Source: Gelidibacter pelagius
GTDB lineage: Bacteria; Bacteroidota; Bacteroidia; Flavobacteriales; Flavobacteriaceae
Assembly: GCF_017581925.1 (NCBI RefSeq)
Contig: NZ_JAGEVG010000004.1
Span: forward strand, 124,001-188,000
Reading direction: 5' to 3'
DNA: 64,000 bases
Shown: piece by piece, positions 1 through 29,378 of the stretch
How positions within the stretch are numbered: position 1 is the first letter of the stretch
Layout of the letters: every line of letters begins with the position of its first letter
Position numbers and translations under genes: made by a program
Notes under the pieces: generated by a model
What the model saw: only the letters and a program-made list of their open reading frames with translations
Told to the model about the DNA's origin: nothing
Database searches by the model: none

Positions 1-522
1 TCCGAGGTTGCCAGTTGACGCAACACCAATCTGACGTTTGCTGAAAAATTCCTGGAATTTAGGAGCGGTCAAAATACTGTAATTGTCCTCTTTTTTCAAT
101 AGGCCCGATTCAAGAGCTAATGTTTCTGCGTAGGTCATGATTTCAAAAAATCCGCCACGAGCTTTGATAGACCCGCAAATAGGTAGTGCATTGTCACATT
201 TTAAAAACAGTCGCCCCTTAATATCTTCTTTGTTATCATTTAAAAGCGATTTCATATTTGGGATTTCAAGGAGAGGAGATTCTAAAATTCCGCGACTTTC
301 TTCCGTTTCGGGAAAAGCTTTTACGAAAAATGGTGCAAAACGCGTCCATAATTGCTCGGCTGCTCTCATATCTTCTAGGTTTATGGAAAATTTGGGAGCA
401 TCCTGCACAGACTGTAACTCAGGGTTCAGCCAAGACACGGGTTTAGCTTTTATGATCTCCTGTAGAATGGGAGCGACTTCCACAAAGGATTCTATTTTCT
501 TTTTTGAATACATGATCAACAT
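1..522 (-). CDS. dsdA: D-serine ammonia-lyase (D-serine dehydratase), 5' part; runs off the left edge
   Basis: Reading the minus strand from 522 to base 1 gives about 174 residues with no stop. The family converts D-serine to pyruvate and ammonia using PLP. The translation contains the segment CDNALPICGSIKARGGFFEI, which matches the PLP-lysine block of DsdA (SIKARGG), and it ends at the window edge in GVASTGNLG, the start of the conserved glycine-rich phosphate-binding loop. An ATG at 522 and a second at 513 are both possible starts; no clear ribosome site separates them. The C-terminal half lies outside the window. The DsdA family is clear from these two motifs; the exact start is not. Confidence 0.88.
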   Translation of the reverse strand, partial: MLIMYSKKKIESFVEVAPILQEIIKAKPVSWLNPELQSVQDAPKFSINLEDMRAAEQLWTRFAPFFVKAFPETEESRGILESPLLEIPNMKSLLNDNKEDIKGRLFLKCDNALPICGSIKARGGFFEIMTYAETLALESGLLKKEDNYSILTAPKFQEFFSKRQIGVASTGNLG

Positions 523-5417: not shown

Positions 5418-6653
5418 ATGAAGTATTCTTTTTACCTACGTAAACCAAAATCTGAAAGCGAAACTTTAATTTTATTTTCATGTTATTTCAATGAAGAAAA
5501 AAAGAAGTTCGTGTATTCTACAAAAAAGACAATTCTACCTGAGCATTGGGATTCTAAAAATAAAACCCCTAATAATAAAGGGAAGTTGGTTTCTGATCAT
5601 CAAACTCAAATTACAAAACGGTTACATGAGTTTGCTACAGAATTCCAAAAAATCAAATCGCGTTCGGAATTAGGGGAGCAAACTTTTAATAGCATTATCC
5701 TAAAAGAGCATTTTGATCAAGTTTTTGAAAGGGTCACCAAAGTAAGCTCCTTTTTTGACGTTTATGACAGTTTTACGGAGGAGAAAATTAAACTCAAAGA
5801 GTGGTCGAAATCTACCATCAAACGTTATAAGAACATTAAAAACCTATTGGAGGAGTTCGAGATTGTCAAAAACTATAAATTGACTTTTGGAAAAGTGAAT
5901 AAAAAATTCTTTACAGAGTTCACAGATTTTTGTTATGAACACAAAGATCATTATACTAATACATTCAGTCGGAATGTCGGGTTATTCAAAACCTTTATGT
6001 TCTGGTCAGTTAAGAATGGATATGCTTTTAATTCCGATTTTATGGATTTCAAAAAGCCACAGCGTGTATTAACACGTCAAGAGGCTCTAACCATGGAGCA
6101 GGTGAAAGCATTATATGAATTTAAGTGTGCAACAGAATCTCATACAAAGGCGAAGGATGTTTTTGTTTTTCAATGCCTTACCGGTTTGAGGTATGGCGAT
6201 TTAATGCTCGTCAATAAACGTATCGTTACAGCTGATGGTTGTTTGTTTCTGAAAGAAGGAAAGGATCATACAAAACCAGATAGAGAAATTCCATTATATA
6301 GAATAGCCATGGAAATTCTACAGAAGTACGATTATGACTTACCATTAAGTACAAATCAAGAACAGAACAGAGCAATCAAGAAGATATTAAGAACGATGGG
6401 TTATGTACATGAAGTAGAGTATTCACGTACAAAAGGAGTAGAACAAGAAAGGTTTGTAGAGCCGTTCTGTGATCGTATCACAACCCATACTGCTCGTAGA
6501 ACCTTTGTGACGATCCTTAGGAATGCTGGACTTGCCGATAAAGTTATCATGAGTGTGACAGGACATAGAGATATTAAAACGTTCAATATGTACCACCAAG
6601 TGAGTTCCATGGCAACCGTTAATGCGATAAACAGGATTTTTAGTGCTATTTGA
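5418..6653 (+). CDS. int: Tyrosine recombinase / integrase
   Basis: This 411-residue site-specific recombinase of the phage-integrase family probably catalyses integration of the element into ssrA and its excision. It has an N-terminal arm-binding domain (residues 1-105), a SAM-like core-binding domain (about 110-215) and a C-terminal catalytic domain. The visible active-site residues are R258 (LTGLRYGD), H357-x-x-R360 (HTARR), H383 (TGHRDIKTFNMY) and the nucleophile Y392. The length and the SAM_5-type core-binding region are typical of Bacteroidota integrases. It reads inward from the left attachment site, with the 24-bp repeat directly in front. A full catalytic set suggests it is active. 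Confidence 0.93.
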   Translation: MKYSFYLRKPKSESETLILFSCYFNEEKKKFVYSTKKTILPEHWDSKNKTPNNKGKLVSDHQTQITKRLHEFATEFQKIKSRSELGEQTFNSIILKEHFDQVFERVTKVSSFFDVYDSFTEEKIKLKEWSKSTIKRYKNIKNLLEEFEIVKNYKLTFGKVNKKFFTEFTDFCYEHKDHYTNTFSRNVGLFKTFMFWSVKNGYAFNSDFMDFKKPQRVLTRQEALTMEQVKALYEFKCATESHTKAKDVFVFQCLTGLRYGDLMLVNKRIVTADGCLFLKEGKDHTKPDREIPLYRIAMEILQKYDYDLPLSTNQEQNRAIKKILRTMGYVHEVEYSRTKGVEQERFVEPFCDRITTHTARRTFVTILRNAGLADKVIMSVTGHRDIKTFNMYHQVSSMATVNAINRIFSAI

Positions 6654-10530: not shown

Positions 10531-13500
10531 TTATTTCCCCGCAAAAAACGCCGCCAAGTTCTCACTCTGTGCTAACACCTTATCAGCTTCCAATTTTGCT
10601 AAATCTGGTGGATAGCCGTAACGCATTAAAATCTTTTTAACGGTGAGCCTTAATTTGGCGCGAACGTCATCTCTGTTTTGCCAATCTACCGTGGCATTGT
10701 TTCTGACGACATCAACGATGGTATGAATGAGTTCTCTCATCTTTTCATCGTCCAGCATTTTCGTGGAGTCGTTTTGAGACAGCACGGTGTAAAAGGCGTA
10801 TTCTTCAGGAGTCAAATTGAGATCTACGCTCTTTTGATCTTCCAAACGCATTTCTTTAGCCATTTCAGAAAGCTCTGCGAGGACTTGTGCTGAATCTATT
10901 TGATTGTTGTGGTATCTTTTAACGATAGATTCTAACATCTCTGAAAAACGCTTCCCTTGTGCAATGTTCTTGACTTTACGTATCCTTACTTCATCGCTCA
11001 ATAACTTTTTAAGCAATTCGTAAGCAACGTTTTTTTGTTGCATGTTTTTTACTTCCAATAAAAACTCATCTGAAAGAATGCTTACCGACGGACTTTCTAT
11101 TCCTGCGGCTTGAAATATATCAATGATGCCATCACTGCCCAACTTATCGTCAATAATCTGTTTGATGGCGGTTTCAACTTCGTAATCTGAAATAACGGTA
11201 TTTCCAGAAAATTTATTGATTCGGCTTTTAATGGCTTGGAAAAAAGCCACATCATCTTTGATTTTATTGGCTTCTGCACTGGGAACAGACATAGCATACA
11301 ATTTAGACAATAGCGTCACTTCTTTTAAGAAACGATCTTTAAGTTTTGGCGTTGCTAAAATAAAGTTCTGCGCTCCTAAAATAATTTGTAAACGCCTGGA
11401 AACTTCTGATGTGAAATAACTCCGATAATCAAAACCTGGAAACATTTGATCCACCACTTCATATTTCTCAAGCATGCCTGCAATCGCTTCTCTAATATCA
11501 ACAACAGGACTGCCTTCGCCACCGCTTTGTAAATAAACCGCCATGGCATTACGCAAATCTTGACCTATTCCAATATAGTCGACAATTAAACCGCCGGGCT
11601 TATCGCCGTAAACACGGTTCACTCTTGCAATGGCTTGCATTAAGTTGGCTCCTTGCATTTTTTTATCCACGTATAAGGTGTGCAAACTTGGCGCATCAAA
11701 ACCTGTGAGCCACATATCACGGACAATGACCAATTGTAACGGATCGTTTTTGTCTTTCATTCGCAAAGCCAATTCCTTGCGTTGTCTTTTGGTGGTGTGG
11801 TGTGGTTGAAATATTGGAAGATCATCAGACGAACTAGTCATGACTACTTTTATATTTCCTTGGGTTAAATCCTCGTTATGCCATTCAGGGCGAAGTGCAA
11901 CGATTTCATTATAAAGCAAAACACAAATTCTGCGTGTCATGCCCACAATCATAGCCTTGCCCACAAACACTTCTTGCCGTGCTTCAAAATGTGCTACTAA
12001 ATCTTTTGCGATATCTTTGATGCGCTCTGGATGTCCAATAACCGCTTCAATAGTTGCCGTTCTCTTTTTTACGTACTCTAATTGTTCTTCAGAAACATGC
12101 GCAATGGCATTGATTTCTTCATCTATGGTGGATGCCGTTTGTGCATCGAGTTTAATTTTTACCAAGCGGGATTCATAACTTATTGGTACTGTGGCACCAT
12201 CATCTACGGCTTGTTTGATATCGTAAACGTCAATATAATCCCCAAAAACGGCTGGTGTTGACTTGTCTTCTTTTTCAATGGGTGTTCCTGTAAAACCGAT
12301 GTAGGAAGCATTGGGTAGCGCATCTCTCAAATATTTGGCATTGCCATAACGGATTTCACTTCCTTCTTCCGTTTCGACTTCACGCGCTTTAAAACCGTAT
12401 TGGCTTCGGTGGGCTTCATCGGCAACGACGACGATGTTCGTGCGTTCTGATAAAGTATCAAACACATTGCCTTCGTCGGGTGAGAACTTTTGGATGGTGG
12501 TGAAAATAACGCCACCGCCACTCACATTTAATAGTTCTTTGATATGATCTCGGTTTTGCGCCTGTACCGGAGTTTGACGTAATAATTCTTTACAGTTTCC
12601 AAAGGTGGAAAAGAGCTGATCATCCAAATCGTTTCTATCGGTAAGGATAACGATGGTCGGATTGCCCATGGCGGGATGGGTTACTATTTGTCCACTATAA
12701 AACACCATCGACAGTGATTTTCCTGATCCTTGTGTATGCCAGACCACACCAATTTTACGGTCGCCAACTTCGGCGTGTGTGGCTCTTACGGTTTGGTCTA
12801 CCGCTTTTTGAACGGCATAATATTGATGGTAAGCCGCTACTTTTTTAATCTTGACTTGAAATATTAAGCCTGTGTTTTTATCCTTTTTTTCTTCTTGCTC
12901 AAAAACAGTACAATAGCGAATGAGTTCGACCAGTGTTTTTTTATTGAGCATGTGCTCGGTTAATATTTGTAAATCTGTGCGCGGATCATTGGGCAGTGGA
13001 GTAGGGGCTTTCCAACTTAAATATCTCGAAAACGGTGCGGATAAACTCGAAGTTTTGGCATCAATACCATCACTGATAATGCAAATGCTGTTGAAATAAA
13101 AAATACTGGGTGTTGCCGTTTTGTAATTCTGAATTTGTTGGTGCGCTCTGATCAAAGTGGCTTGCTCGTCGGTGGCATTTTTAAGTTCGGCAAAAACCAA
13201 AGGCAAGCCGTTCACGAAAATGACCACATCAAAACGTTTTTCGTTATTATTTTCTTTAACCACTAGTTGATTGACTGCCCAAAAACTATTGTTCTCTGGC
13301 TGAACCACATCTAATAATTTTATATTGATACCGCGAGTTCTGCCGTCTTTGTAATATTCTACAGTAACGCCATTGGAGAGGTAGGTATGGAAACGCTCGT
13401 TGTTTTCCATAATGTCCAAAGTGCCCAAGTTGCGTACTTTTTGAAAAGCTTCTATTCTGGCTACCTCTGGCACCTCAGGGTTAAGCTTTTGAATGGCGTT

Positions 13501-13656
13501 TTTTAATTGCTGTTCCAATAACACCGACTCAAAACTCTCACGTTGCGGATTATTGCTGTAAGGTGCAATATCTGGACCATAATGACACGTGTAGCCTTGC
13601 CCAACTAATTGCTCTATAAAAGATTGTTCGATGGTGTTTTCGGTGATTTTAGTCAT
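10531..13656 (-). CDS. hsdR: Type I restriction enzyme, R (endonuclease/translocase) subunit
   Basis: About 1041 residues from the ATG at 13656 (the frame also opens at a TTG, 13668). It cuts DNA after ATP-driven translocation, together with HsdM and HsdS. The N-terminal nuclease domain shows the PD-(D/E)xK core (LPLVFAELKN, then an IQNY helix). SF2 helicase motifs follow: HTQGSGKS (Walker A), VVADEAHRSQYG (DEAH box), GFTGTPIEKED (motif III), VIVRDMWLTGFDAP (V) and QAIARVNRVYGDKPGG (VI). The C-terminal ~250 residues form the helical subunit-binding region. Length and motifs are complete. Its start overlaps the end of the ApeA-like gene by 8 bp. Confidence 0.96.
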   Translation of the reverse strand: MTKITENTIEQSFIEQLVGQGYTCHYGPDIAPYSNNPQRESFESVLLEQQLKNAIQKLNPEVPEVARIEAFQKVRNLGTLDIMENNERFHTYLSNGVTVEYYKDGRTRGINIKLLDVVQPENNSFWAVNQLVVKENNNEKRFDVVIFVNGLPLVFAELKNATDEQATLIRAHQQIQNYKTATPSIFYFNSICIISDGIDAKTSSLSAPFSRYLSWKAPTPLPNDPRTDLQILTEHMLNKKTLVELIRYCTVFEQEEKKDKNTGLIFQVKIKKVAAYHQYYAVQKAVDQTVRATHAEVGDRKIGVVWHTQGSGKSLSMVFYSGQIVTHPAMGNPTIVILTDRNDLDDQLFSTFGNCKELLRQTPVQAQNRDHIKELLNVSGGGVIFTTIQKFSPDEGNVFDTLSERTNIVVVADEAHRSQYGFKAREVETEEGSEIRYGNAKYLRDALPNASYIGFTGTPIEKEDKSTPAVFGDYIDVYDIKQAVDDGATVPISYESRLVKIKLDAQTASTIDEEINAIAHVSEEQLEYVKKRTATIEAVIGHPERIKDIAKDLVAHFEARQEVFVGKAMIVGMTRRICVLLYNEIVALRPEWHNEDLTQGNIKVVMTSSSDDLPIFQPHHTTKRQRKELALRMKDKNDPLQLVIVRDMWLTGFDAPSLHTLYVDKKMQGANLMQAIARVNRVYGDKPGGLIVDYIGIGQDLRNAMAVYLQSGGEGSPVVDIREAIAGMLEKYEVVDQMFPGFDYRSYFTSEVSRRLQIILGAQNFILATPKLKDRFLKEVTLLSKLYAMSVPSAEANKIKDDVAFFQAIKSRINKFSGNTVISDYEVETAIKQIIDDKLGSDGIIDIFQAAGIESPSVSILSDEFLLEVKNMQQKNVAYELLKKLLSDEVRIRKVKNIAQGKRFSEMLESIVKRYHNNQIDSAQVLAELSEMAKEMRLEDQKSVDLNLTPEEYAFYTVLSQNDSTKMLDDEKMRELIHTIVDVVRNNATVDWQNRDDVRAKLRLTVKKILMRYGYPPDLAKLEADKVLAQSENLAAFFAGK

Positions 13657-15046
13657 TGTTATTATCAAATATTAGACTATTATGAAAAGTAATATGTAAT
13701 TGCTTATTTATAACTTCGTGATCAAAACCAAGTTCAAACATTAAAATTGCCTGAATAACCACTCTAAGCTTTTTTGTCATTCTACTTAATTCGATAACAT
13801 CAGTAATTACAAGCTCTTTATTTTGAACCTTTTCATGAACATGAAAGTGTCTTGTTTCTACAACATTATCAATGAATTTTTCAACGTCATCGACAAGACC
13901 ATTTAAGCTTTGGTTATGAACTTCAAACAAATGTTCTAATCGTTGCTTTAGGCTATTCTCAGTGTGTTTTCTTAATCTTGATTCTAACCATTGAATATGT
14001 CTTTTGTTGTGAATTTGATCCAAAATCTCTTTTCGAATCTTAAGGTAGTTTTCGTTTTTATGATTGAATCCACCATACTTAGTACGATGATAAACCTCTA
14101 AACCAAAAACATAATTTAAGAATTTATCTTCAGTATAAAGAAAGTCGTTATAGAGCGTGCCAAAAAAGTTGTTTATGGTAAATTTGAGATCATCGTATTT
14201 ATCAAACCAATTTTGAAAAACCTGATGTACATTGTCCTTTAGAAAGTCATAGCCTAATAACATTTGCATTGAGTTATGTATTTTTATAGGGTTATTAAAA
14301 TTGTTTTGAAATTTATCTTTCCATAAATAATCAAAATAAACACCCTCACTATTTTGCCAACCAACACTAATCCTTCTTATTTTTATAGGTGTTCCAATAG
14401 CTAGAGTAAAAAAATTTCTAATCTTTTTAGAAGTTTCTCTTATTTCTGTCAAACTTTTCTGTTCTAAAAACTCTAATTTTAAAAATGCTGATTGACTACA
14501 GTTAAAATGTGAATTTGTCGGATGTTTATATGAAATAACTGTGAGTAGTTTTAATGTGAAATCTTGGTTCTCAAATAAAATAATTGGTTCCGGCTGTTTG
14601 TAACGAAGAGAGAAATTATGAAGTTTATTATTTTGTTCGTTTGGGTATGATATATCAAAACTATTAGTATCTATCCATTCATTCAGAAATTGAGGGTCTA
14701 GTATAATGCTATCAAACTTAAGAGTATCACTTAGCTCAGATGAGACGGATTTTAAGATGAAACTTGCATGAAGCTTATAGTATGTTAATTTATTTAGTGA
14801 ATTACTTACAACTATTGAGTTTAAAAGTTTAAAAGAATAATCGTAATTTGAGTCCTCCTCTCTTGCAATACCTATAATTAATTCGAACTCTCTGATGGTT
14901 CGAAAATTTACTATTACACTACCGCTTTTGAAAGTATCAAGTAATTGTAAAATGTAATCTCCATTATTATGAATTGTTAAGGTGCCGGGTATGCTGTTTT
15001 TTTCATGTCCTGGTAACCACCAATAACCTATATAAGCTTTTGTCAT
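13649..15046 (-). CDS. ApeA-like HEPN anti-phage protein
   Basis: The 465-residue protein starts with GYWWLPGHEKNSIPGTLTI, which matches the beta-rich ApeA N-terminal domain 1. The C-terminal helical region carries an R-x4-H HEPN ribonuclease motif, RHFHVH, near residue 400. ApeA proteins are single-gene anti-phage systems that probably cleave RNA upon infection. Here the gene lies between hsdS and hsdR on the same strand and overlaps hsdR by 8 bp, so it is part of the restriction operon. The family assignment is by recognised start motif, length and HEPN motif; activity is inferred. Confidence 0.75.
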   Translation of the reverse strand: MTKAYIGYWWLPGHEKNSIPGTLTIHNNGDYILQLLDTFKSGSVIVNFRTIREFELIIGIAREEDSNYDYSFKLLNSIVVSNSLNKLTYYKLHASFILKSVSSELSDTLKFDSIILDPQFLNEWIDTNSFDISYPNEQNNKLHNFSLRYKQPEPIILFENQDFTLKLLTVISYKHPTNSHFNCSQSAFLKLEFLEQKSLTEIRETSKKIRNFFTLAIGTPIKIRRISVGWQNSEGVYFDYLWKDKFQNNFNNPIKIHNSMQMLLGYDFLKDNVHQVFQNWFDKYDDLKFTINNFFGTLYNDFLYTEDKFLNYVFGLEVYHRTKYGGFNHKNENYLKIRKEILDQIHNKRHIQWLESRLRKHTENSLKQRLEHLFEVHNQSLNGLVDDVEKFIDNVVETRHFHVHEKVQNKELVITDVIELSRMTKKLRVVIQAILMFELGFDHEVINKQLHITFHNSLIFDNNND

Positions 15047-15053
15047 GTTCCCT

Positions 15054-15158
15054 TTAGGTTTTATATTCAGGATTTGACCACTCTAAAAGCGATGCTGTGA
15101 ATGCATCTTGACTTAACTCACTGCCAGCATGTTTAAATATATTCGGCGTTTCTATCAT
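15054..15158 (-). pseudogene. Remnant of a PD-(D/E)xK nuclease-superfamily gene (N-terminus only)
   Basis: A 34-codon frame from ATG 15158 to TAA 15054 encodes MIETPNIFKHAGSELSQDAF and ends ASLLEWSNPEYKT. This closely recalls the N-terminus of PDDEXK_10-type nuclease-superfamily proteins (F-x-x-A-x-SELSQDAF...LLEWA). The rest of that gene is absent; the ApeA-like gene begins 7 bp after the stop. It may be a deletion scar or a kept leader peptide. Confidence 0.55.
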
Positions 15159-15164
15159 GATTGA

Positions 15165-16325
15165 TTATAATTTCACTCTTAATTCCCCACTCATTAATTT
15201 TGATAATAAAGTGTCTCTGGTTTTACTTAAGGATTGGATTTGTGAAATATTGAAATTGATTTTTGTATAAAATGAACTAATTATATTATTGAATTCGTTC
15301 ATTATATTGTTTTCTGGAATAATTAGTGGAATCTGATTTAATACGTTTGTTGTTAGACTCGGAACCGCGGAACCAACATTCATTGCCGATAGATCAATTG
15401 ATTTTAAAAATAAATAAATAAATCTTCCTTGAATTGGATTTTTTATTTTACTATAAAACATTGTATCAACAGACCAGAAAGGTTGATTTAAATAAAACAA
15501 ATTAGTTAATGTACCTTTTCGAGGAATTAGGATAGACTCTTTTTTATAAAGCGGTTTTTCAACATATCGCATAATTCCACCAGAACCATATAGCGGATAA
15601 TCTCCATCTTGTAAATGTTTATGGTCTTTGCCATATTTAATATCTAATAAATCTGACAACTTCCCAACCCGCCATCCCTCAGGCAATTCATCTTCTAACT
15701 GATATTTCCCAAACCATTCGTTAAAAATAGTTTGTGCGGTTTGCTCTAAGGTGTCATTTTGAGCACGTAGATTTTCTATTTTATCGTCAAAAGCGGTTAA
15801 GACATTGGCTATGGCTTTTTGTTCTGGGCGAGGGGGGAGATTAATATTTATATAATCAAAAGTTTTTGTGGTAATGGTGTCAAATACTGCTCCATAGGTG
15901 TTTTGGTTAATCTGTTTTAAACTGAATTTTAGTAAATAAAATATAAAATCTATTTCGGAGAGGTTTTCAATGTTTCTTATTCCATAGCAAGATTGATTAA
16001 AAGTCATTTCTCTTTTTAATTGTGCCATCGCACCAACCGTTCCTCTTGCAGAAATTATGATGTCGCCTTTATTCAAAAGTTTTGTTGAACTTTTTTCAAG
16101 TCCTAAAGAAGTTATCGTTTTTTCTGTGGAGCTCACCCATCTGTTATCGTCATTAAAATCAACTACAGATAACCAAGGTATCTCACCATTCCAATATTCG
16201 GGAACGGAAGTTTTGGGTGTTCCGCCACCTATAATTTTAATGACTTTGCCTAAAGTGGTCTCCACCCATCCTTCAGAAATACTTCGGCTGCGCTCAGCAC
16301 TAGTTTTATTTTTCACTTGACTCAT
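15165..16325 (-). CDS. hsdS: Type I restriction-modification specificity subunit
   Basis: The 386-residue HsdS sets the DNA target. It shows two target-recognition halves: the first begins GWVETTLGKVIKIIGGGTPK and ends at the central conserved helix LPPRPEQKAIANVLTAFDD, and the second begins GWRVGKLSDLLDIKYGK and ends SKLMSGELRVKL. Its start overlaps the hsdM stop (ATGA). Residues 8-17, SAERSRSISE, come from a CTTCGGCTGCGCTCAGC-type stretch that looks like a dispersed flavobacterial repeat read in frame before the first domain. Both halves are intact. Confidence 0.93.
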   Translation of the reverse strand: MSQVKNKTSAERSRSISEGWVETTLGKVIKIIGGGTPKTSVPEYWNGEIPWLSVVDFNDDNRWVSSTEKTITSLGLEKSSTKLLNKGDIIISARGTVGAMAQLKREMTFNQSCYGIRNIENLSEIDFIFYLLKFSLKQINQNTYGAVFDTITTKTFDYININLPPRPEQKAIANVLTAFDDKIENLRAQNDTLEQTAQTIFNEWFGKYQLEDELPEGWRVGKLSDLLDIKYGKDHKHLQDGDYPLYGSGGIMRYVEKPLYKKESILIPRKGTLTNLFYLNQPFWSVDTMFYSKIKNPIQGRFIYLFLKSIDLSAMNVGSAVPSLTTNVLNQIPLIIPENNIMNEFNNIISSFYTKINFNISQIQSLSKTRDTLLSKLMSGELRVKL

Positions 16326-17836
16326 AATTCAAATCCAATATTAGCCAATTGTGTTTTAATCTCTTGGTTTAACGCCTCCTCTTGTTCCATTTGTGCTTTT
16401 AGCAAGGTTGTTAACTCTTCCATCTTAGTTTCAAACGAAATGCCATCGTCAATTTCATCTTCAATTCCTACATAGCGCCCTGGTGTTAATACATGGTTGT
16501 GTTTGCGAATCTCTTCGAGAGTTGCGGACTTACAAAAACCTTTAATATCGGAGTAGAGTTCGATTCTCTCTGGTTTTCTCCAATTGTAATAGGTGTCACG
16601 AATGGTGGCAATATCCGCATCGCTAAAGTCACGGTTCACACGGTTAATCATATGTCCCATTTCGGAAGCATCAATAAATAAAACTTCTTTACTGTGGTCA
16701 CTTTTCTCACGACGTAAAAACCAAATACAGGCAGGAATACCAGTGTTATAAAACAGTTGTTTTGGCAATGCCACAATACATTCTACCAAATCATTTTCTA
16801 CTAATGCTTTGCGTATTTCGCCTTCGCCAGAGGTGTTAGAACTCAACGAGCCATTAGCCAGTACAGTTGCCATCACACCATTGGGTGCCAAGTGGTATAA
16901 CATGTGTTGCATCCATCCAAAGTTGGCGTTGCCATTGGCAGGAATACCATATTGCCAACGTGCATCGTCTTGTAAAATATCAATACCCCATTCCTTTTGG
17001 TTAAAGGGAGGATTGGCAAGAATATAATCGGCTTTTAAATCGGGGTGTGCATCTTTTAAAAACGTGCCTTCGGTATTCCATGCCACAAACTGGGAGTTGA
17101 TATTGCGAATGGCAAGGTTCATCCGCGACAGTTTCCACGTGGTTTGGTTGCTTTCTTGTCCGTAAACGGTAATGTCTTTAATGTTTCCGCTGTGTTCAGT
17201 GACGAATTTTTCCGACATCACAAACATACCACCAGAACCACAGGCAGGATCATAAACACGTCCTTTGTAAGGCTCAATCATTTCCACCATCAGTTTTACA
17301 ATGGCTTTTGGCGTGTAGAATTGTCCCCCTTTTTTACCTTCGGCATTGGCGAATTCGCCTAAAAAGTATTCATAAACACGTCCAAAAAGATCTTTAGAGT
17401 TTTCGTTTTCTACTTGCAGCTCGGTGTTGGAAATCAAGTCAATCAATTCGCCTAAAGACGTTTTGTCCAGATTGGCTTTGCCATACACTTGCGGAAGTAC
17501 GTTTTTGAGTTCTTTGTTTTCTTTTTCAACAACTTCCATCGCTTCGTCAATGGTTTGTCCGATGCTTGGTAGTTTGGCGTTGGCGTGAATATGTTCCCAA
17601 CGTGCGAGCTTCGGCACAAAGAAACAGTTTACGGCAATGTATTCATCGCGATCTTCAGGATCGCTCCATTCGTCAGCTTCCAATTTATGGTATAACTCGT
17701 TAAAGGATTCTGAAATGTATTTTAAGAAGATGAGCCCTAACACCACGTGTTTGTATTCGGCTGCATCGATGTTTTTACGCAATTTATCTGCTGCTTTGAA
17801 CAGGTCTTGTTCAAAGGTATTTTTACTTTTTGCCAT
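16322..17836 (-). CDS. hsdM: Type I restriction-modification methyltransferase subunit
   Basis: The 504-residue N6-adenine methyltransferase has an N-terminal helical domain (residues 1-150), the SAM-binding motif I DPACGSGGMF near 200, and the catalytic motif IV NPPF near 278. It methylates the host site and forms the M2S core for restriction. It is the first gene of the hsdM-hsdS-(remnant)-apeA-hsdR unit and overlaps hsdS by 4 bp. Length and motifs are those of an intact HsdM. Confidence 0.96.
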   Translation of the reverse strand: MAKSKNTFEQDLFKAADKLRKNIDAAEYKHVVLGLIFLKYISESFNELYHKLEADEWSDPEDRDEYIAVNCFFVPKLARWEHIHANAKLPSIGQTIDEAMEVVEKENKELKNVLPQVYGKANLDKTSLGELIDLISNTELQVENENSKDLFGRVYEYFLGEFANAEGKKGGQFYTPKAIVKLMVEMIEPYKGRVYDPACGSGGMFVMSEKFVTEHSGNIKDITVYGQESNQTTWKLSRMNLAIRNINSQFVAWNTEGTFLKDAHPDLKADYILANPPFNQKEWGIDILQDDARWQYGIPANGNANFGWMQHMLYHLAPNGVMATVLANGSLSSNTSGEGEIRKALVENDLVECIVALPKQLFYNTGIPACIWFLRREKSDHSKEVLFIDASEMGHMINRVNRDFSDADIATIRDTYYNWRKPERIELYSDIKGFCKSATLEEIRKHNHVLTPGRYVGIEDEIDDGISFETKMEELTTLLKAQMEQEEALNQEIKTQLANIGFEL

Positions 17837-18163
17837 GTAAATGTATTGACTGTTTGGTTTAACGCTTTAAAAATAGCAAAACCGAGTGAGTATTGATGTG
17901 TAAAGCTATAATTATATAAATGTATAAATATAGAATTGTATGAAAAGTAGATTGTGCGATTTGGAATTTAGCATATTTGATGACAAACCAGTGTTAATAA
18001 CCTTGTGGACATTGATTTACAGGCTGGTTGGTTTTTTTTGTGAAAAAAGTATATGTTTGATAATTGTCAAATTAGAGATGCATTTTAGAATTTAGATCAT
18101 CAAAAGGGATGTGTGTGCATATCTTCGTTTCCCATTTTATGAAAATAGAACAATTAAGGAGTT
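17837..18163. other. Divergent intergenic region between hsdM and the NACHT gene
   Basis: This 327-bp AT-rich region should hold both promoters. A purine-rich stretch (AATTAAGGAGTT) a few bases before the ATG at 18164 is a plausible ribosome site. I see no long inverted repeat or ORF in it. Confidence 0.5.
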
Positions 18164-20554
18164 ATGAGTAAAGAGACTTTAACAAATAAAACTTTCAAAA
18201 ACGTCAAGGACAAACTTGAATATATTCAAAAAGAATGCAACGAAACTGAACTGTTTGGTGATTTATCAGTTCTATTCAAGAACAAAGGATTTCAAAATGT
18301 AAAAATTACGCATGGAAATAAAGAATATGGGAAAGATTTAGTTTTTTCAAAATATGATGAAACTTTTGAAGAAGATAAATGGTATGCGGTTATTGTTAAA
18401 AATAAACCTGCTAGACAAAATGATTTTATGGTTGGGGGTGAGATTGCAAATCAAATTCTTCAAGCCATAAATAAACCTTATAGAACGCCTAAAGGTGAAG
18501 AAAAGAATGTTTCAGGACTATTCATTGTCATAAATGGAAATGTTACTGAAAACTCAACTGATATGCTAGTTGAATTCGTTTCTAAAATCATTTTACCTAA
18601 TATTAAAATATATGATTATCAAGATTTAAGAAATCAAATAGAAGAATATTCTAAAGAATCTTTTTTAGATAATATCGAGCCTTCATTAAGTATTTTTGTT
18701 AAAGAACAAACTAAGATTTTATCTGATATAAGCCTTTCAAATTCTATTTTTGATTTAAAATTAAATGATATTAATGAGATTTTTATTAATGTTCAAACGA
18801 CTTACACAAGAGAACTAAAAAAGATAAATAATTATGTAACTTTTGATGAATCTGACAAGAAATATAAAGAAGAGGATGTTGAAGGTTCAAATGAAATTTT
18901 AAATTCAAACAAAAACTTTATTATTCATGGTATTCCCACTAGTGGTAAAACTCTTTTTTTGAAACGTATAGGGTTAAAAGCCTTATGCGAAGATACTATC
19001 AAACAAAATGCAGTTTTTTATTTTGATTTACAGAATCATACAAGAAATGGTTTAGAAATCAAATTATTAATTGATGAACAGTTTTCGAAATTAACTAAGG
19101 GAGAGGTTTTCAAAGAAGAAGAATTTAATAAAGTGATTATACTGTTTGATTCCATAGACTTTATTAAAGATGATTCAATAAAAATAAATATTTTAAAATC
19201 AATCGAAAAAATATCGAAAGAGAATGAGAAATTCCAAATTATCCTTGCAACAAGAAATTATAATTTTATTAAAGGTGAGAAAATATTAACTGAATTTAAA
19301 GATACTGAATTACTTCCATTTAATTTCGGTCAAGCACTAAGTTTAGTAAAAAGAATTATACCAAATGATAAACTAAAGACGAATCATTTCTTATCTGCTT
19401 TAAAAAGCTCGATGTTAAATACCTCATTGCAAAGAACTCCTCTTTCTTTAACTCTATTAGCGATTTTATATAGAGATGATAAAATTGATTTAAAAGAGTT
19501 GCCAGCAAATATTTTTTCTTTATATGACTTATTTACTGATGTTTATTTGGATAAATGGGATGCTACAAAAGGAATTACGCAACTATATAAATATGAACAA
19601 ACAAAAAATATTTTGGCGTTCATCGCTTTTCAACTTCATGAAAAGGGTTCTAACTCAATATTAGAAGATGACTTGAAATTATTTTTATTAGAACTGCGCA
19701 AAGATTATAATTATGATGAATTAAACAATATTGAAGATTTTGTTGAACACTTGAAATCGAAGAATGGAGTATTTAATTATGATAACTCAAATAAATCCTT
19801 CTATTTTTTCAACCATTATTTTCAAGAATACTTTGCAAGTTTATGCATAGAAGATGATGCTGATTCTATTTTGATTGATAATTTCTTTAATGATTGGTGG
19901 AGTAATTCAATCGTGTTTTATTGTGGTAAAAAACCAAGAAGCAATAGGTTACATCACGAAATAAATTCGAAAATAATTCCTATCGGTAGTCGCCAAAAGG
20001 CGATGTATTTAGTTAATCATTCAAAATGTTTACAAGCAAGTCATTCTATCTCAATCTCTAATAGAGAAATGGTAGTAAGGAAATTAATTTTTGAATTTAA
20101 TAACTTATTCATTTCTATTTTAGAAGAAAGCCAAAATAATTCAGAGTCTCTATTTAATAAAATGCCTTTTGTTACAATACTTAATTATAGCAAAAATCTT
20201 TTTGATGATATCTTTTCCTCAAAGCACATAGCTACTTCCGAAACAATTAAAATTTTCGAAGAAATTTTGCTTGATTATGAAAATGATCTTTCAGAAATAA
20301 CAATTTACAATATTGCCTATTTTCTAGCATTTCTTAATCATACCGCCTTTCCGTTCGAAGTTTCTGGTAACAGATTAAAGAATAATATTGTTTGGAATAG
20401 AATTTTATTTGTGGACATTAATTTACTTAAATTAAAAAAGAAAATTGATGAAAAGCAATTTATAAGAATAAAACGTAGAATGAATAAGAATAAATTTCTC
20501 ATTCAGAATTTGCTGAATAATAGTTATTTAGAAATGAGTAAAAATAAAAAATAG
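18164..20554 (+). CDS. Mrr-like nuclease fused to a NACHT/STAND-type NTPase (probable anti-phage protein)
   Basis: The 796-residue protein has an N-terminal restriction-endonuclease-like domain (about residues 25-180): LFGDLSVLFKNKGFQNVKI, then EYGKDLVFS and WYAVIVKNK, the G-x-D...x-V-K pattern of Mrr nucleases. A P-loop NTPase follows: FIIHGIPTSGKTLFLK (Walker A, about 252-267) and KVIILFDSIDF (Walker B, about 324-334), then ATRNYNF and a helical RTPLSLTLLAILYRDD segment as in NACHT proteins. The last ~250 residues are helical without visible repeats. Nuclease-NACHT fusions (Avs, bNACHT) act as phage sensors that kill or cleave on infection. It stands divergent from the restriction locus. 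The sensor role is inferred. Confidence 0.78.
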   Translation: MSKETLTNKTFKNVKDKLEYIQKECNETELFGDLSVLFKNKGFQNVKITHGNKEYGKDLVFSKYDETFEEDKWYAVIVKNKPARQNDFMVGGEIANQILQAINKPYRTPKGEEKNVSGLFIVINGNVTENSTDMLVEFVSKIILPNIKIYDYQDLRNQIEEYSKESFLDNIEPSLSIFVKEQTKILSDISLSNSIFDLKLNDINEIFINVQTTYTRELKKINNYVTFDESDKKYKEEDVEGSNEILNSNKNFIIHGIPTSGKTLFLKRIGLKALCEDTIKQNAVFYFDLQNHTRNGLEIKLLIDEQFSKLTKGEVFKEEEFNKVIILFDSIDFIKDDSIKINILKSIEKISKENEKFQIILATRNYNFIKGEKILTEFKDTELLPFNFGQALSLVKRIIPNDKLKTNHFLSALKSSMLNTSLQRTPLSLTLLAILYRDDKIDLKELPANIFSLYDLFTDVYLDKWDATKGITQLYKYEQTKNILAFIAFQLHEKGSNSILEDDLKLFLLELRKDYNYDELNNIEDFVEHLKSKNGVFNYDNSNKSFYFFNHYFQEYFASLCIEDDADSILIDNFFNDWWSNSIVFYCGKKPRSNRLHHEINSKIIPIGSRQKAMYLVNHSKCLQASHSISISNREMVVRKLIFEFNNLFISILEESQNNSESLFNKMPFVTILNYSKNLFDDIFSSKHIATSETIKIFEEILLDYENDLSEITIYNIAYFLAFLNHTAFPFEVSGNRLKNNIVWNRILFVDINLLKLKKKIDEKQFIRIKRRMNKNKFLIQNLLNNSYLEMSKNKK

Positions 20555-21204: not shown

Positions 21205-22245
21205 CTATTTGTTCAGTCTTGGATTGGCTTTTAAATAATCTTCAATTTGTATTCTAAGCTCGATGGGTAGTAAGTGTAATGCTATTTGAGCGGGCAATTT
21301 TTTAATGCTTTCTAGAGACGCTATTTTTAGATACATTTCTCCATTTTCTGAATGATACAAGTGGCACACAAATTCATCTCCTGGTTTGAGTGTTACTTTT
21401 TCTTTCACCGTAAACAATGATGTGTACTGAGGGTTGTTGGGGTTTTCATCATCAATGTTACTTGTAAGCTTTAAGTTTAATTCGTTGGTTTCCTTTTCAG
21501 ATGCCACATTTGAAACTTTATCTTCAATTGTAATTTGTGTCTTTACATATTCATACTCATCCTTCAATCTATCCAGAAATCCATAATTTTTTATGATATT
21601 TTTATCGTCTAAATCCACATCAAGAAATAGCAGTTTTTCAGCTTCTAGGAGTCGCAATACGGTAAAGAGCATTTTGTAGCTTTGAGATCCTTGACCATAA
21701 TAATATCTTTTTAATTCTACGATACTATCTAATTGTATAGCGTGTTTTAGTACGGTGTTCTCAAATTCTGAAAGGTTGTTCCATGCTTTAGCATCAATTG
21801 CCTTATTAGAATCCTTTATCAGCTGCATTACCATTTCCCTTTGTGCTTTTTGTTTTTCATCTTGTTCTGATACTATTCTATTTTGTCGTTGCTCAGCTTC
21901 ATTGGTTTTACATTGCTCACATTTATGAGGATTCTTTCTCTTAAGGTGGTATATAGTATCTGTAAATCCTGTCTGACTGGTGATAGGTAAGGGCTCTGTT
22001 TTTTTGCACGTGCCACAGTAGATATGGAGGATTAGCTTAGAGAATTTATTTATCGTAGCATTTAATTCTTTCTGCTTCAAACGATATTTGAATCTAATCT
22101 GTGAAGGAATTTCGCTGAATTTATAATTGGAATCGTGATCCCAATATTCCTGAATAAGTTCTTTTGTTTTATCAGGACAATCATCTGATATTAGTAATTC
22201 AATCTTTTGAAGTTTTTCATTTAAATGTTTCATACGGTTCGGCAT
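21205..22245 (-). CDS. Hypothetical protein with zinc-ribbon-like cysteine pairs, 346 aa
   Basis: The first 75 residues are basic and helical. CGTC near 76 and CEQC near 105 then form a C-x2-C...C-x2-C zinc-ribbon-like pair, followed by a charged coiled-coil-like stretch (EQRQNRIVSEQDEKQKAQRE). The C-terminal ~100 residues look like a beta domain (FTVKEKVTLKPGDEFVCHLY). No known family is recognised; nucleic-acid binding is a guess from the zinc ribbon and basic helices. A nested hairpin lies directly upstream of its start, so it may be controlled in cis by that structure. Confidence 0.6.
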   Translation of the reverse strand: MPNRMKHLNEKLQKIELLISDDCPDKTKELIQEYWDHDSNYKFSEIPSQIRFKYRLKQKELNATINKFSKLILHIYCGTCKKTEPLPITSQTGFTDTIYHLKRKNPHKCEQCKTNEAEQRQNRIVSEQDEKQKAQREMVMQLIKDSNKAIDAKAWNNLSEFENTVLKHAIQLDSIVELKRYYYGQGSQSYKMLFTVLRLLEAEKLLFLDVDLDDKNIIKNYGFLDRLKDEYEYVKTQITIEDKVSNVASEKETNELNLKLTSNIDDENPNNPQYTSLFTVKEKVTLKPGDEFVCHLYHSENGEMYLKIASLESIKKLPAQIALHLLPIELRIQIEDYLKANPRLNK

Positions 22246-22268
22246 AAAAAAAGCGTGGAACTGAACCT

Positions 22269-22389
22269 ATTAGTTTTAGAGGTATCGCCAGACACCCATC
22301 GACCAAATAAGAACAGCCCACGCCGAAACGTGGGCGTCTTAACTACGATTTGGTCGATTTCAAAAACTGGCGATTTTCTAAAACCTAAT
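22269..22389 (-). other. Nested three-level hairpin (structured RNA or single-strand DNA element)
   Basis: Three sets of complementary arms nest inside each other. The outer arms are at 22269-22291 and 22366-22389 (TCGCCAG against CTGGCGA, and TTTTAGA against TCTAAAA). The middle arms are CGACCAAAT (22300-22308) and ATTTGGTCG (22348-22356), perfect. The inner arms are GCCCACG (22316-22322) and CGTGGGC (22329-22335), perfect, with a 6-base loop. There is no T run, so it is not a simple terminator. It could be a leader of the downstream gene, a small RNA, or an origin hairpin. Confidence 0.7.
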
Positions 22390-22565
22390 CAGAAGCTAAA
22401 CGCTTAATATGTTAATATTTATTTATCTATCTATATTTTTCTTTTTTATTTCTACAACATTACAAATTTAAGGAATTTTATATTTTGTAGATACTGTTTT
22501 CTATCCTAAAGCTTGGATTGAGCCATTTGAAAAGTATTTACCGCCATTCTACTTTGATAAAAGGC

Positions 22566-22796
22566 TCAATTTACTTCCAAGTATAGTTCTAAAGCCTTAT
22601 TGATAATGGTCTTTATCTTTTCATCCTCTTTCAAGGCTTTTAATTTTACCTTTTTCAAAAGTTGTTTGGATAAGTAGAATGAAAACTGGACTTCCTCATT
22701 CTGGCTGCTCTTGACGGGAATAACCTTCTGTACTGTTTTACTTTGATTGCTTGCCTTGGCTTTGCTAATCAACTCATTGATACTTTGTTTTTCCAT
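22566..22796 (-). CDS. Small ribbon-helix-helix protein, likely ParA partner
   Basis: This 76-residue protein has a polar N-terminal tail (residues 1-35) followed by a strand-helix-helix (FSFYLSKQLLKKVKLKAL, then IKTIINKALELYLEV) typical of ribbon-helix-helix DNA-binding proteins. It lies 50 bp downstream of the parA gene on the same strand, the normal place for a ParG/ParB-type partner that binds a centromere. It is probably the DNA-binding part of a partition pair, but a regulator role is equally possible. Confidence 0.65.
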   Translation of the reverse strand: MEKQSINELISKAKASNQSKTVQKVIPVKSSQNEEVQFSFYLSKQLLKKVKLKALKEDEKIKTIINKALELYLEVN

Positions 22797-28979: not shown

Positions 28980-28983
28980 AAAA

Positions 28984-28996
28984 GTGGAGTCGGAGA
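28984..28996. repeat. Right attachment core (3' end of ssrA)
   Basis: GTGGAGTCGGAGA forms the end of the tRNA-like domain of ssrA and is identical to 5235-5247. Confidence 0.78.
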
Positions 28997-29378
28997 GAAT
29001 CGAACTCTCGTCCAAACAAGTTACCAAAGGGCTTTCTACACGTTTATTCTTTTCTTGTTTTTTCGATTGCAAGCTGGTTAAAGACAACCTACTTACAACT
29101 TAGCTTCTTTAGTTTCAAGAGCAAATCAAAGCGCTTTGCTCCCTATGTCAACATTTACGATGTCTCTGAGCTGACCGCCGCTGACCAGGGCTTTCAAGAG
29201 ACATTTAGCTTCCCTACCTAGTAGGGATTAGCAAAATCCTACTGTAATTCGGATTACGCAGCTAAAGCGTAGTTATTCTCGCCGTTTAAAAGTTTGAAAT
29301 AGTCTTTTACGTGTTTCAATTTCATTACACGACGTGCTTACCATCTAATAAATCTCGCTGTCAAAACCAGTCGACCCC
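28985..29378 (-). ncRNA. ssrA: Transfer-messenger RNA (tmRNA)
   Basis: The one-piece tmRNA is ~394 nt. On the minus strand it starts GGGGTCGACTGGTTTTGACA, and ends CGAGAGTTCGATTCTCTCCG followed by ACTCCA. The 5' GGGGUCG pairs with CGACUCC near the 3' end (one G-U pair), and the T-arm with its GTTCGAT loop is visible. The 3' CCA is not encoded. The tag frame (29283 down to 29254) reads GENNYALAA then stop, so with the charged alanine the tag is AGENNYALAA. It rescues stalled ribosomes with SmpB. The gene is intact although an element is inserted at its 3' end. Confidence 0.96.

Follow-up and report, generated by a model that had tools for sequence, protein, structure and literature searches.

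The RNA described here is, as comparative analysis of its homologues leads us to conclude with good confidence, a cis-acting transcription attenuator of a class absent from Rfam. Covariation shows that two mutually exclusive folds of the same letters are under selection in many Bacteroidota. In our best reading, the RNA is a leader with a riboswitch-like layout that in this case sits on a mobilizable element of Gelidibacter pelagius, within a window (the whole stretch of DNA analyzed) of 64,000 nucleotides. Attenuators are generally recognized by mutually exclusive terminator and antiterminator structures in a 5' leader, and covariation and predicted folding energies point to such a pair here.

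The original prediction had drawn attention to a hairpin of about 120 nt with three nested levels of arms at 22269..22389. All three arm pairs are found, and the fold lies far below shuffled controls: folded as RNA, 22249-22409 reaches -59 kcal/mol against -28.4 +/- 3.6 in shuffles (z -8.5, 0/200 as good), and the minus strand in a 251-nt frame gives a z of -4.3 (0/200 as good). The size holds for the hairpin, but the full element is larger, extending over about 22246-22406 with its outer strands, terminator and U-run, or over 22246-22458 when counted from the predicted transcription start. Neither the minus strand as the relevant one nor the second, incompatible fold of the same letters had been part of that prediction. 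The features, with the kind of evidence in brackets, are:

22463..22470, minus strand: TAAATTTG, which matches TAnnTTTG, the promoter box of Bacteroidota, with a predicted transcription start near 22458
22246..22458, minus strand: predicted leader RNA of about 213 nt, from the start site (placed from the box) to the end of the U-run
22384..22406, minus strand: region 1, 5' strand of the OFF hairpin 1:2 (swap test)
22327..22355, minus strand: region 2, partner of region 1 (OFF) or of region 3 (ON) (swap test)
22303..22325, minus strand: region 3, partner of region 2 (ON) or of region 4 (OFF terminator) (swap test)
22252..22272, minus strand: region 4, 3' strand of the terminator stem (swap test, column counts)
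22246..22252, minus strand: U-run completing the predicted intrinsic terminator
22377..22384 and 22273..22280, minus strand: rod helix P1, 5' and 3' strands (covariation)
22367..22374 and 22284..22291, minus strand: rod helix P2, 5' and 3' strands (covariation)
22351..22358 and 22298..22305, minus strand: rod helix P3, 5' and 3' strands (swap test)
22316..22335, minus strand: tip hairpin P5, the innermost of the predicted arms (22316-22322/22329-22335, 7 bp, perfect, 6-base loop)
22298-22308/22348-22358: middle arms, 11 bp, perfect
around 22273-22291/22367-22384: outer arms
22281..22296, minus strand: small hairpin GGTGT/ATACC in the terminator loop (OFF) (coordinates by counting)
22375..22377, minus strand: conserved AAA facing ACC, flanking P2; candidate binding core
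21205..22245, minus strand: downstream zinc-ribbon gene, 346 aa, whose first ATG touches the U-run; the next in-frame ATG is at 22233

In the mechanism that we propose, RNA polymerase would start on the minus strand near 22458 and copy a leader of about 210 nt with four competing regions. In the OFF state, region 1 would pair with region 2, the hairpin 3:4 would form ahead of the U-run, and transcription would stop just before the gene. In the ON state, a rod of P1, P2 and P3 tipped by 2:3, which corresponds to the hairpin first picked out, would leave region 4 without a partner, so that no terminator would arise and the zinc-ribbon gene would be transcribed. Since region 3 is unable to pair with regions 2 and 4 at once and, on geometric reasoning, the full rod should exclude either OFF hairpin, the RNA would be bistable. 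The choice would be biased by a cue from the cell that touches the conserved loops next to P2 or region 1; a small molecule or a widely shared protein is the likeliest. Transcription, termination, the direction of control and the cue are all four what we infer.

The RNA belongs to a family that recurs across the Bacteroidota. A BLAST search of 397 genomes of the taxonomic family, its own included, found some match at E <= 0.01 in 29 genomes, from which re-alignment retained 13 loci beyond the window (172-187 alignment columns, 65-84% identity). A covariance model (R1) built from these 13 loci and the window copy has matches in 78 of the 397 genomes at E <= 0.1, and a second model (R2), built from 98 sequences, matches 65 of 395 genomes drawn from the whole phylum at E <= 0.001. 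Copy numbers are lower bounds, with six candidates per genome scored in the family and phylum scans; in the genome of G. pelagius itself BLAST recovers a single copy, to which the structure model adds three diverged ones. A motif scan of genome contigs, in which loci were picked by GCGTGG, TGGYGRTACC and CACGCTT, returned at least 120 stretches, and 118 of the 120 listed have a model match (94/96, the weakest at E 0.0023, and 24/24); because these motifs picked the loci, the invariance of the same letters there proves nothing. Going by their record names, the listed matches come nearly all from Bacteroidota. Copies in otherwise-named metagenome-assembled genomes (MAGs), namely Ignavibacteria L096, Chlorobiota L128, Oscillospiraceae L144 and Merdenecus L094, may be real transfers or binning errors. 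Pattern matches in an archaeal and a Polaromonas MAG (L046, L092) lack a model match and were set aside as chance, and R2 had no match at E <= 0.01 in 200 genomes of the phylum of that Polaromonas MAG, in a search run without an internal positive control.

Known families do not account for it. Against Rfam 15, the whole window gave tmRNA as its sole match at the gathering threshold, 22200-22570 matched no family at E up to 5 (JUMPstart RF01707, 6S and T-box included), and nine related loci had no match at the gathering threshold. Plasmid and phage collections searched by blastn gave no match. A literature search found no description of the RNA in the available portions of the sources, although it could be among the candidates listed in PMC8040213 or in the six-member family of PMC11697453.

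The comparative tests rest on two sets of loci. Alignment A4 comprises 98 sequences; it omits 28 of 126 non-redundant matches, namely those of at least 212 nt, and the window takes the place of the copy L169. A set of 52 loci obtained other than by the motif scan (the non-pattern loci) joins the window copy and 24 other A4 rows to 27 loci of a further alignment (A6), and of these 52 just the 27 A6 loci stood outside the models. These held-out loci are the listed loci among the best phylum matches, a non-random choice in which one clade is dominant; L206 was dropped as it occupies the same place as L193. A recognizable A4 relative exists for 25/27 of them, at identities of at least 80% for 19/27 and at least 90% for 1/27. 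Their alignment was fitted to the ON structure, and in all the swap tests kinship among rows can inflate the z-scores.

Covariation among homologues, the check that the original prediction had itself proposed, turned out in favor of an RNA, and of two mutually exclusive folds rather than one. The swap test compares the pairing of each strand with its own partner and with the partner from another sequence, over the 98 sequences and 2000 permutations. The rod P1-P3 reaches a z of -42.8, and hairpins 1:2, 2:3 and 3:4 reach -17.7, -15.2 and -17.6, at mean energies of -15.6, -19.6 and -22.0 kcal/mol, with 0/2000 permutations as good in all four cases. The separate pieces behave likewise (P1 -38.9, P2 -13.5, P3 -34.1, P4 -14.9, P5 -8.7, P6 -13.5), where P4 is part of 1:2, and P5 and P6 make up 2:3. 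In the 27 held-out loci the z-scores are -18.5 for the rod, -7.9 for 1:2, -5.0 for 2:3 and -7.9 for 3:4, against -0.7 to +0.8 for four negative pairings, and 30 of 39 rod pairs are standard pairs that differ on both sides. Most other pairings tried across the 98 sequences lie between -2.8 and +2.3. Weak signals were seen between region 1 and the linker that precedes region 4 (-2.8, 4/2000), between the U-stretch and AAA (-2.8), between AGC in region 1 and the tip strand (-3.2), and for a small stem within region 1 (-3.4). The pairing of GCGTT with AACGC (-6.8) is part of 1:2, and an intended control, the post-tip strand with the linker before region 4 (-10.9), was later recognized as part of the terminator stem. 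A closing helix of 5' AAGCG and 3' CGCTT, present in the minimum-energy fold, is not claimed (z -1.7, 125/2000).

Column counts tell the same story for both states. In the ON fold 83.1% of cells form standard pairs, against 32-45% when the partner is slid by 1-3 columns, and 32 of 39 pairs have two-sided changes; in the OFF fold the figures are 82.8% against 38-58%, with two-sided changes in 25 of 31 pairs. P1 shows two-sided changes in 8/8 pairs (92.1% of cells paired) and P2 in 7/8 (95.9%), including the replacement of a whole block, ATCGCCA/TGGCGAT by ACTGGTA/TACCAGT. P3 has low counts (44-62% of cells); as it does pass the swap test, we attribute these to misalignment. The tip hairpin P5 has 95.5% of cells paired, with G-U variants on its 5' strand, and the small OFF hairpin GGTGT/ATACC has 90.9% (z -8.0). 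Region 3 tracks its two partners simultaneously, on the side of the 3' strand with ACGTGG/CCACGT in L199 and GTGTGG/CCACAC in L197, and the GC-rich terminator stem 3:4, of 17 bp in the window, has a median of 18 bp and a range of 9-22 over the 98 rows. On the minus strand, the wobbles of the ON helices are G-U in 300 cells against A-C in 40, as expected for RNA transcribed from that strand.

The surroundings of the element point the same way. The box TAnnTTTG, a promoter consensus of Bacteroidota according to PMC9723704, typically lies on the RNA strand 20-60 nt ahead of the model start. Over 84 loci, the pair of 20-nt bins covering this stretch contains 59 boxes, where about 1.1 per bin is expected and the other strand has 1-2 per bin. 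In the 52 non-pattern loci, the box is on the RNA strand in 32 (expected 3.7; other strand 3), and a T-run follows the 3' strand in 41, against 10 in an upstream control stretch. The downstream gene in these loci lies on the same strand in 46, on the opposite strand in two and is missing in four, while the upstream gene is on the same strand in 14 and on the opposite one in 36. In the larger set of 126, a same-strand ORF begins within 80 nt of the terminator strand in 85 of the 111 loci with room and within 260 nt in 99, leaving 12 with no qualifying ORF; the start codon falls 50-64 nt past the terminator strand in 48/103 loci, and upstream neighbors are on the same strand in 59 and on the opposite one in 46 of 107. 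In a clade linked to SusC-type receptors the gene starts about 190-700 nt beyond the RNA, a distance that suits a leader less well than a spacing of 50-64 nt.

When growing prefixes of the window leader are folded, a 1:2-type hairpin appears at 120-144 nt, and the rod displaces it stepwise at 156-192 nt, before region 4 is complete. At full length the rod beats the two-domain fold by 11.9 kcal/mol on average, and by more than 3 in 94% of the 98 rows. Accordingly, the unassisted RNA should end in the ON state at equilibrium, and the OFF state would be reached either kinetically, by rapid termination, or with the help of a bound factor holding hairpin 1:2.

One of the closest precedents for such competition is the trp-type attenuator, in which hairpins 1:2 and 3:4, the latter a terminator, compete with an antiterminator 2:3. 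Our RNA resembles it in its four competing regions and in the U-run just before the gene. It differs in an extra rod, P1-P3, that spans both hairpins, in targets other than the biosynthetic operons of one amino acid, and in lacking a conserved leader peptide: a short ORF occurs in 31/82 loci against 29.5 +/- 4.0 in shuffles, with a weak excess of ORFs of one or two codons (22 against 11.1 +/- 3.1). T-box leaders, which are marked by an unpaired UGGN in the antiterminator bulge, were considered and rejected: there is no Rfam match, region 3 keeps its conserved UGG paired whichever fold is formed, and the UGG of P2b is swapped out by compensatory change in one clade.

The suggestion that the hairpin could be a regulatory leader for the zinc-ribbon gene is thus supported as to class, given the minus strand, promoter box, terminator-like stem, U-run and compensatory changes, but not as to specificity. 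The RNA lies beside only 3 of 13 relatives of the zinc-ribbon gene in the 397 genomes, from which it follows that the RNA and the gene are separable modules. The zinc-ribbon protein has a C-x2-C ... C-x2-C pattern invariant in 4/4 aligned relatives, no match in Pfam, PADLOC or NCBIfam at E up to 0.001, no match in the plasmid collection and no confirmed relative in viral contigs; a structure predicted from two sequences (mean pLDDT 51) was set aside. More generally, the genes downstream of the RNA come from many families, with exported proteins overrepresented among their products. A family scan of the window protein with 97 of the 103 downstream proteins gave 58 Pfam families among these 98, the largest of which is found in 8 members; they include LRR/BspA proteins, outer-membrane barrels, polysaccharide export proteins and response regulators. 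Matches to a type III methylase, LeoA-like proteins and a sigma factor were found as well. By a simple signal-peptide rule, 58/103 downstream proteins are positive, against 105/468 other ORFs of the same loci (Fisher p 4.7e-11).

Within this diversity, the clade with the ACTGGTA-type P2 often has a SusC-type TonB-dependent receptor downstream (5/5 loci scanned, picked from 28 loci, others of which have different downstream genes), and a small divergent upstream ORF with an HTH match in 5/5 (three above the Pfam cut-off). In L193, L204, L217, L221, L222 and similar loci the RNA lies between a small divergent HTH gene and a SusC-type receptor gene, and the HTH genes appear to differ from locus to locus. 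By eye, L217, L221 and similar loci of this clade have TGCGATTCTTCA where the RNA begins and, about 50-70 nt past the RNA, a similar ...TTTTTCATAGTCTCGCA; these flanks carry an inverted pair TGCGA/TCGCA that would be either an additional outer stem or the termini of a mobile unit. Other variants were also seen. In L082, L089, L135, L147 and G000:C20, two copies of the RNA lie on the same strand, about 80 nt to 1.8 kb apart, and are perhaps tandem attenuators. In copies from Bacteroides and Parabacteroides, such as L097, L090 and L167, an apparent extra hairpin, noticed by eye, adjoins the downstream side of the promoter box, and in some of them GGACATA-like letters come next; it was not seen in flavobacterial copies.

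As to what operates the switch, two answers are each sub-cases of the attenuator explanation. The first, to which we give a little under an even chance, is a ligand-binding riboswitch in which the unpaired letters beside P2 and in region 1 would form an aptamer for one metabolite or ion and the rest the expression platform. One mark of riboswitches is a structured domain, conserved and placed ahead of genes, in which certain unpaired letters are conserved as well, and this is found here: in the rows picked without the motif scan, AAA, ACC, a U-stretch above P2 and U.GCU in region 1 are conserved while unpaired in the ON fold, with the three letters of AAA beside P2 present in 23, 25 and 25 of 25 such rows. 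Neighbors from many gene families could suit a sensor of a common metabolite; however, the downstream genes share no pathway that would name a ligand, and the conserved ACC is also accounted for by the small OFF hairpin. The crcB and pfl motifs overlap with intrinsic terminators, as stated in PMC2864571, and our RNA resembles these riboswitches in a fold that excludes an intrinsic terminator, in its position in the 5' UTR and in serving several gene types. Its targets are more diverse than theirs, and it is almost wholly confined to Bacteroidota in the data searched.

The second answer, possible yet in our view more likely to fail than to hold, is a protein-controlled leader, on whose region 1 or rod an RNA-binding protein or a NusG/RfaH-like factor would set termination. 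JUMPstart/ops and LoaP-type leaders are a model for this: a single motif stands ahead of unrelated, often mobile or surface-related operons, and an RNA-binding or NusG/RfaH-like factor sets termination. The diverse, often exported targets of our RNA and its carriage on mobile elements recall the operons of JUMPstart and RfaH, as does the sharing of one leader motif by unrelated operons. Against this stand the want of an Rfam match, JUMPstart included, the larger size and bistability of our RNA, and the gene context of the 13 close relatives and the window, where a gene cluster accompanies the RNA in at most 6 of 14 loci.

It is unlikely that the RNA acts in trans as an independent small RNA, with a promoter and terminator of its own, and that the gene is transcribed separately. 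The promoter box and terminator suit this reading, as do the 190-700 nt to the gene and the divergent HTH gene upstream in the SusC-linked clade, and we keep it alive because terminated leaders would themselves show up as small RNAs. Nevertheless, such an RNA needs neither the placement of the gene (46 loci on the same strand against 2, with the start codon 50-64 nt away in 48/103) nor a second conserved fold in which its own terminator is lost. PMC11697453 describes GibS and FopS as multicopy small RNAs of Bacteroides, with FopS acting in trans by binding the start regions of susC mRNAs, and also a six-member RNA family beside transposases and invertases. Set against GibS and FopS by their description alone, our RNA shares the multicopy habit in Bacteroidota, housekeeping-type promoters and links to SusC. 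In L077, L108 and L116 (Bacteroides), genes that by eye resemble serine recombinases lie 52-429 nt upstream of the RNA, which could connect it to the family beside invertases (PMC11697453).

The attenuator in the window stands at the end of the core of a mobilizable element, made up of genes for an HTH protein, a DUF5906 protein, a primase-like protein, a NikA-like protein, a relaxase and ParA; the small neighboring protein earlier called RHH has no Pfam match. Beyond the RNA come a protein whose weak NACHT match falls short of the Pfam cut-off and a type I restriction system; an integrase lies farther out. HsdR, HsdS and HsdM are encoded at 10531-20554 with an ApeA/HEPN gene between HsdR and HsdS, and an opposite-strand protein with the weak NACHT/STAND match adjoins these restriction genes; together the restriction, ApeA and NACHT/STAND genes would be defence cargo of the element. 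A tmRNA gene (28982-29378, minus strand) lies beside the element and may be its attachment site, and a tyrosine integrase lies at 5418-6653. Close relatives often have different genes following this position. The earlier proposals of a DNA element, whether a ParA/RHH partition site, or a single-strand, lagging-strand or rolling-circle origin, and the further reading as a recombination site, draw on ParA, RHH and relaxase genes that adjoin the RNA here and in 3 of the 13 close relatives, but are very improbable, as 10 of the 13 (including L040, with almost no upstream sequence) have none of these genes in the fetched flank, and the minus-strand bias of wobbles, the promoter box and the T-run all oppose them.

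Attenuators and riboswitches are known kinds of regulator; this RNA would be a new class among them, in which a rod competes with two hairpins. Changes in its helices can be compensated separately in either state, which yields predictions at the level of single mutations. We suggest, tentatively and with more doubt than conviction, that the copies make up a phylum-wide regulon of a new riboswitch class, a portable bistable leader present in several copies in many genomes. If so, genes for the envelope, capsule, SusC-type receptors and sigma factors, along with defence genes and mobile cargo, would come under a single intracellular signal of the Bacteroidota. These bacteria figure prominently in the human gut and in many marine habitats, and to our knowledge few of their leader RNAs are understood. 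A leader with two alternative folds, present in 65 of 395 genomes across the phylum, would offer a direct handle on how they switch surface and horizontally acquired genes, and may be a new natural sensor.
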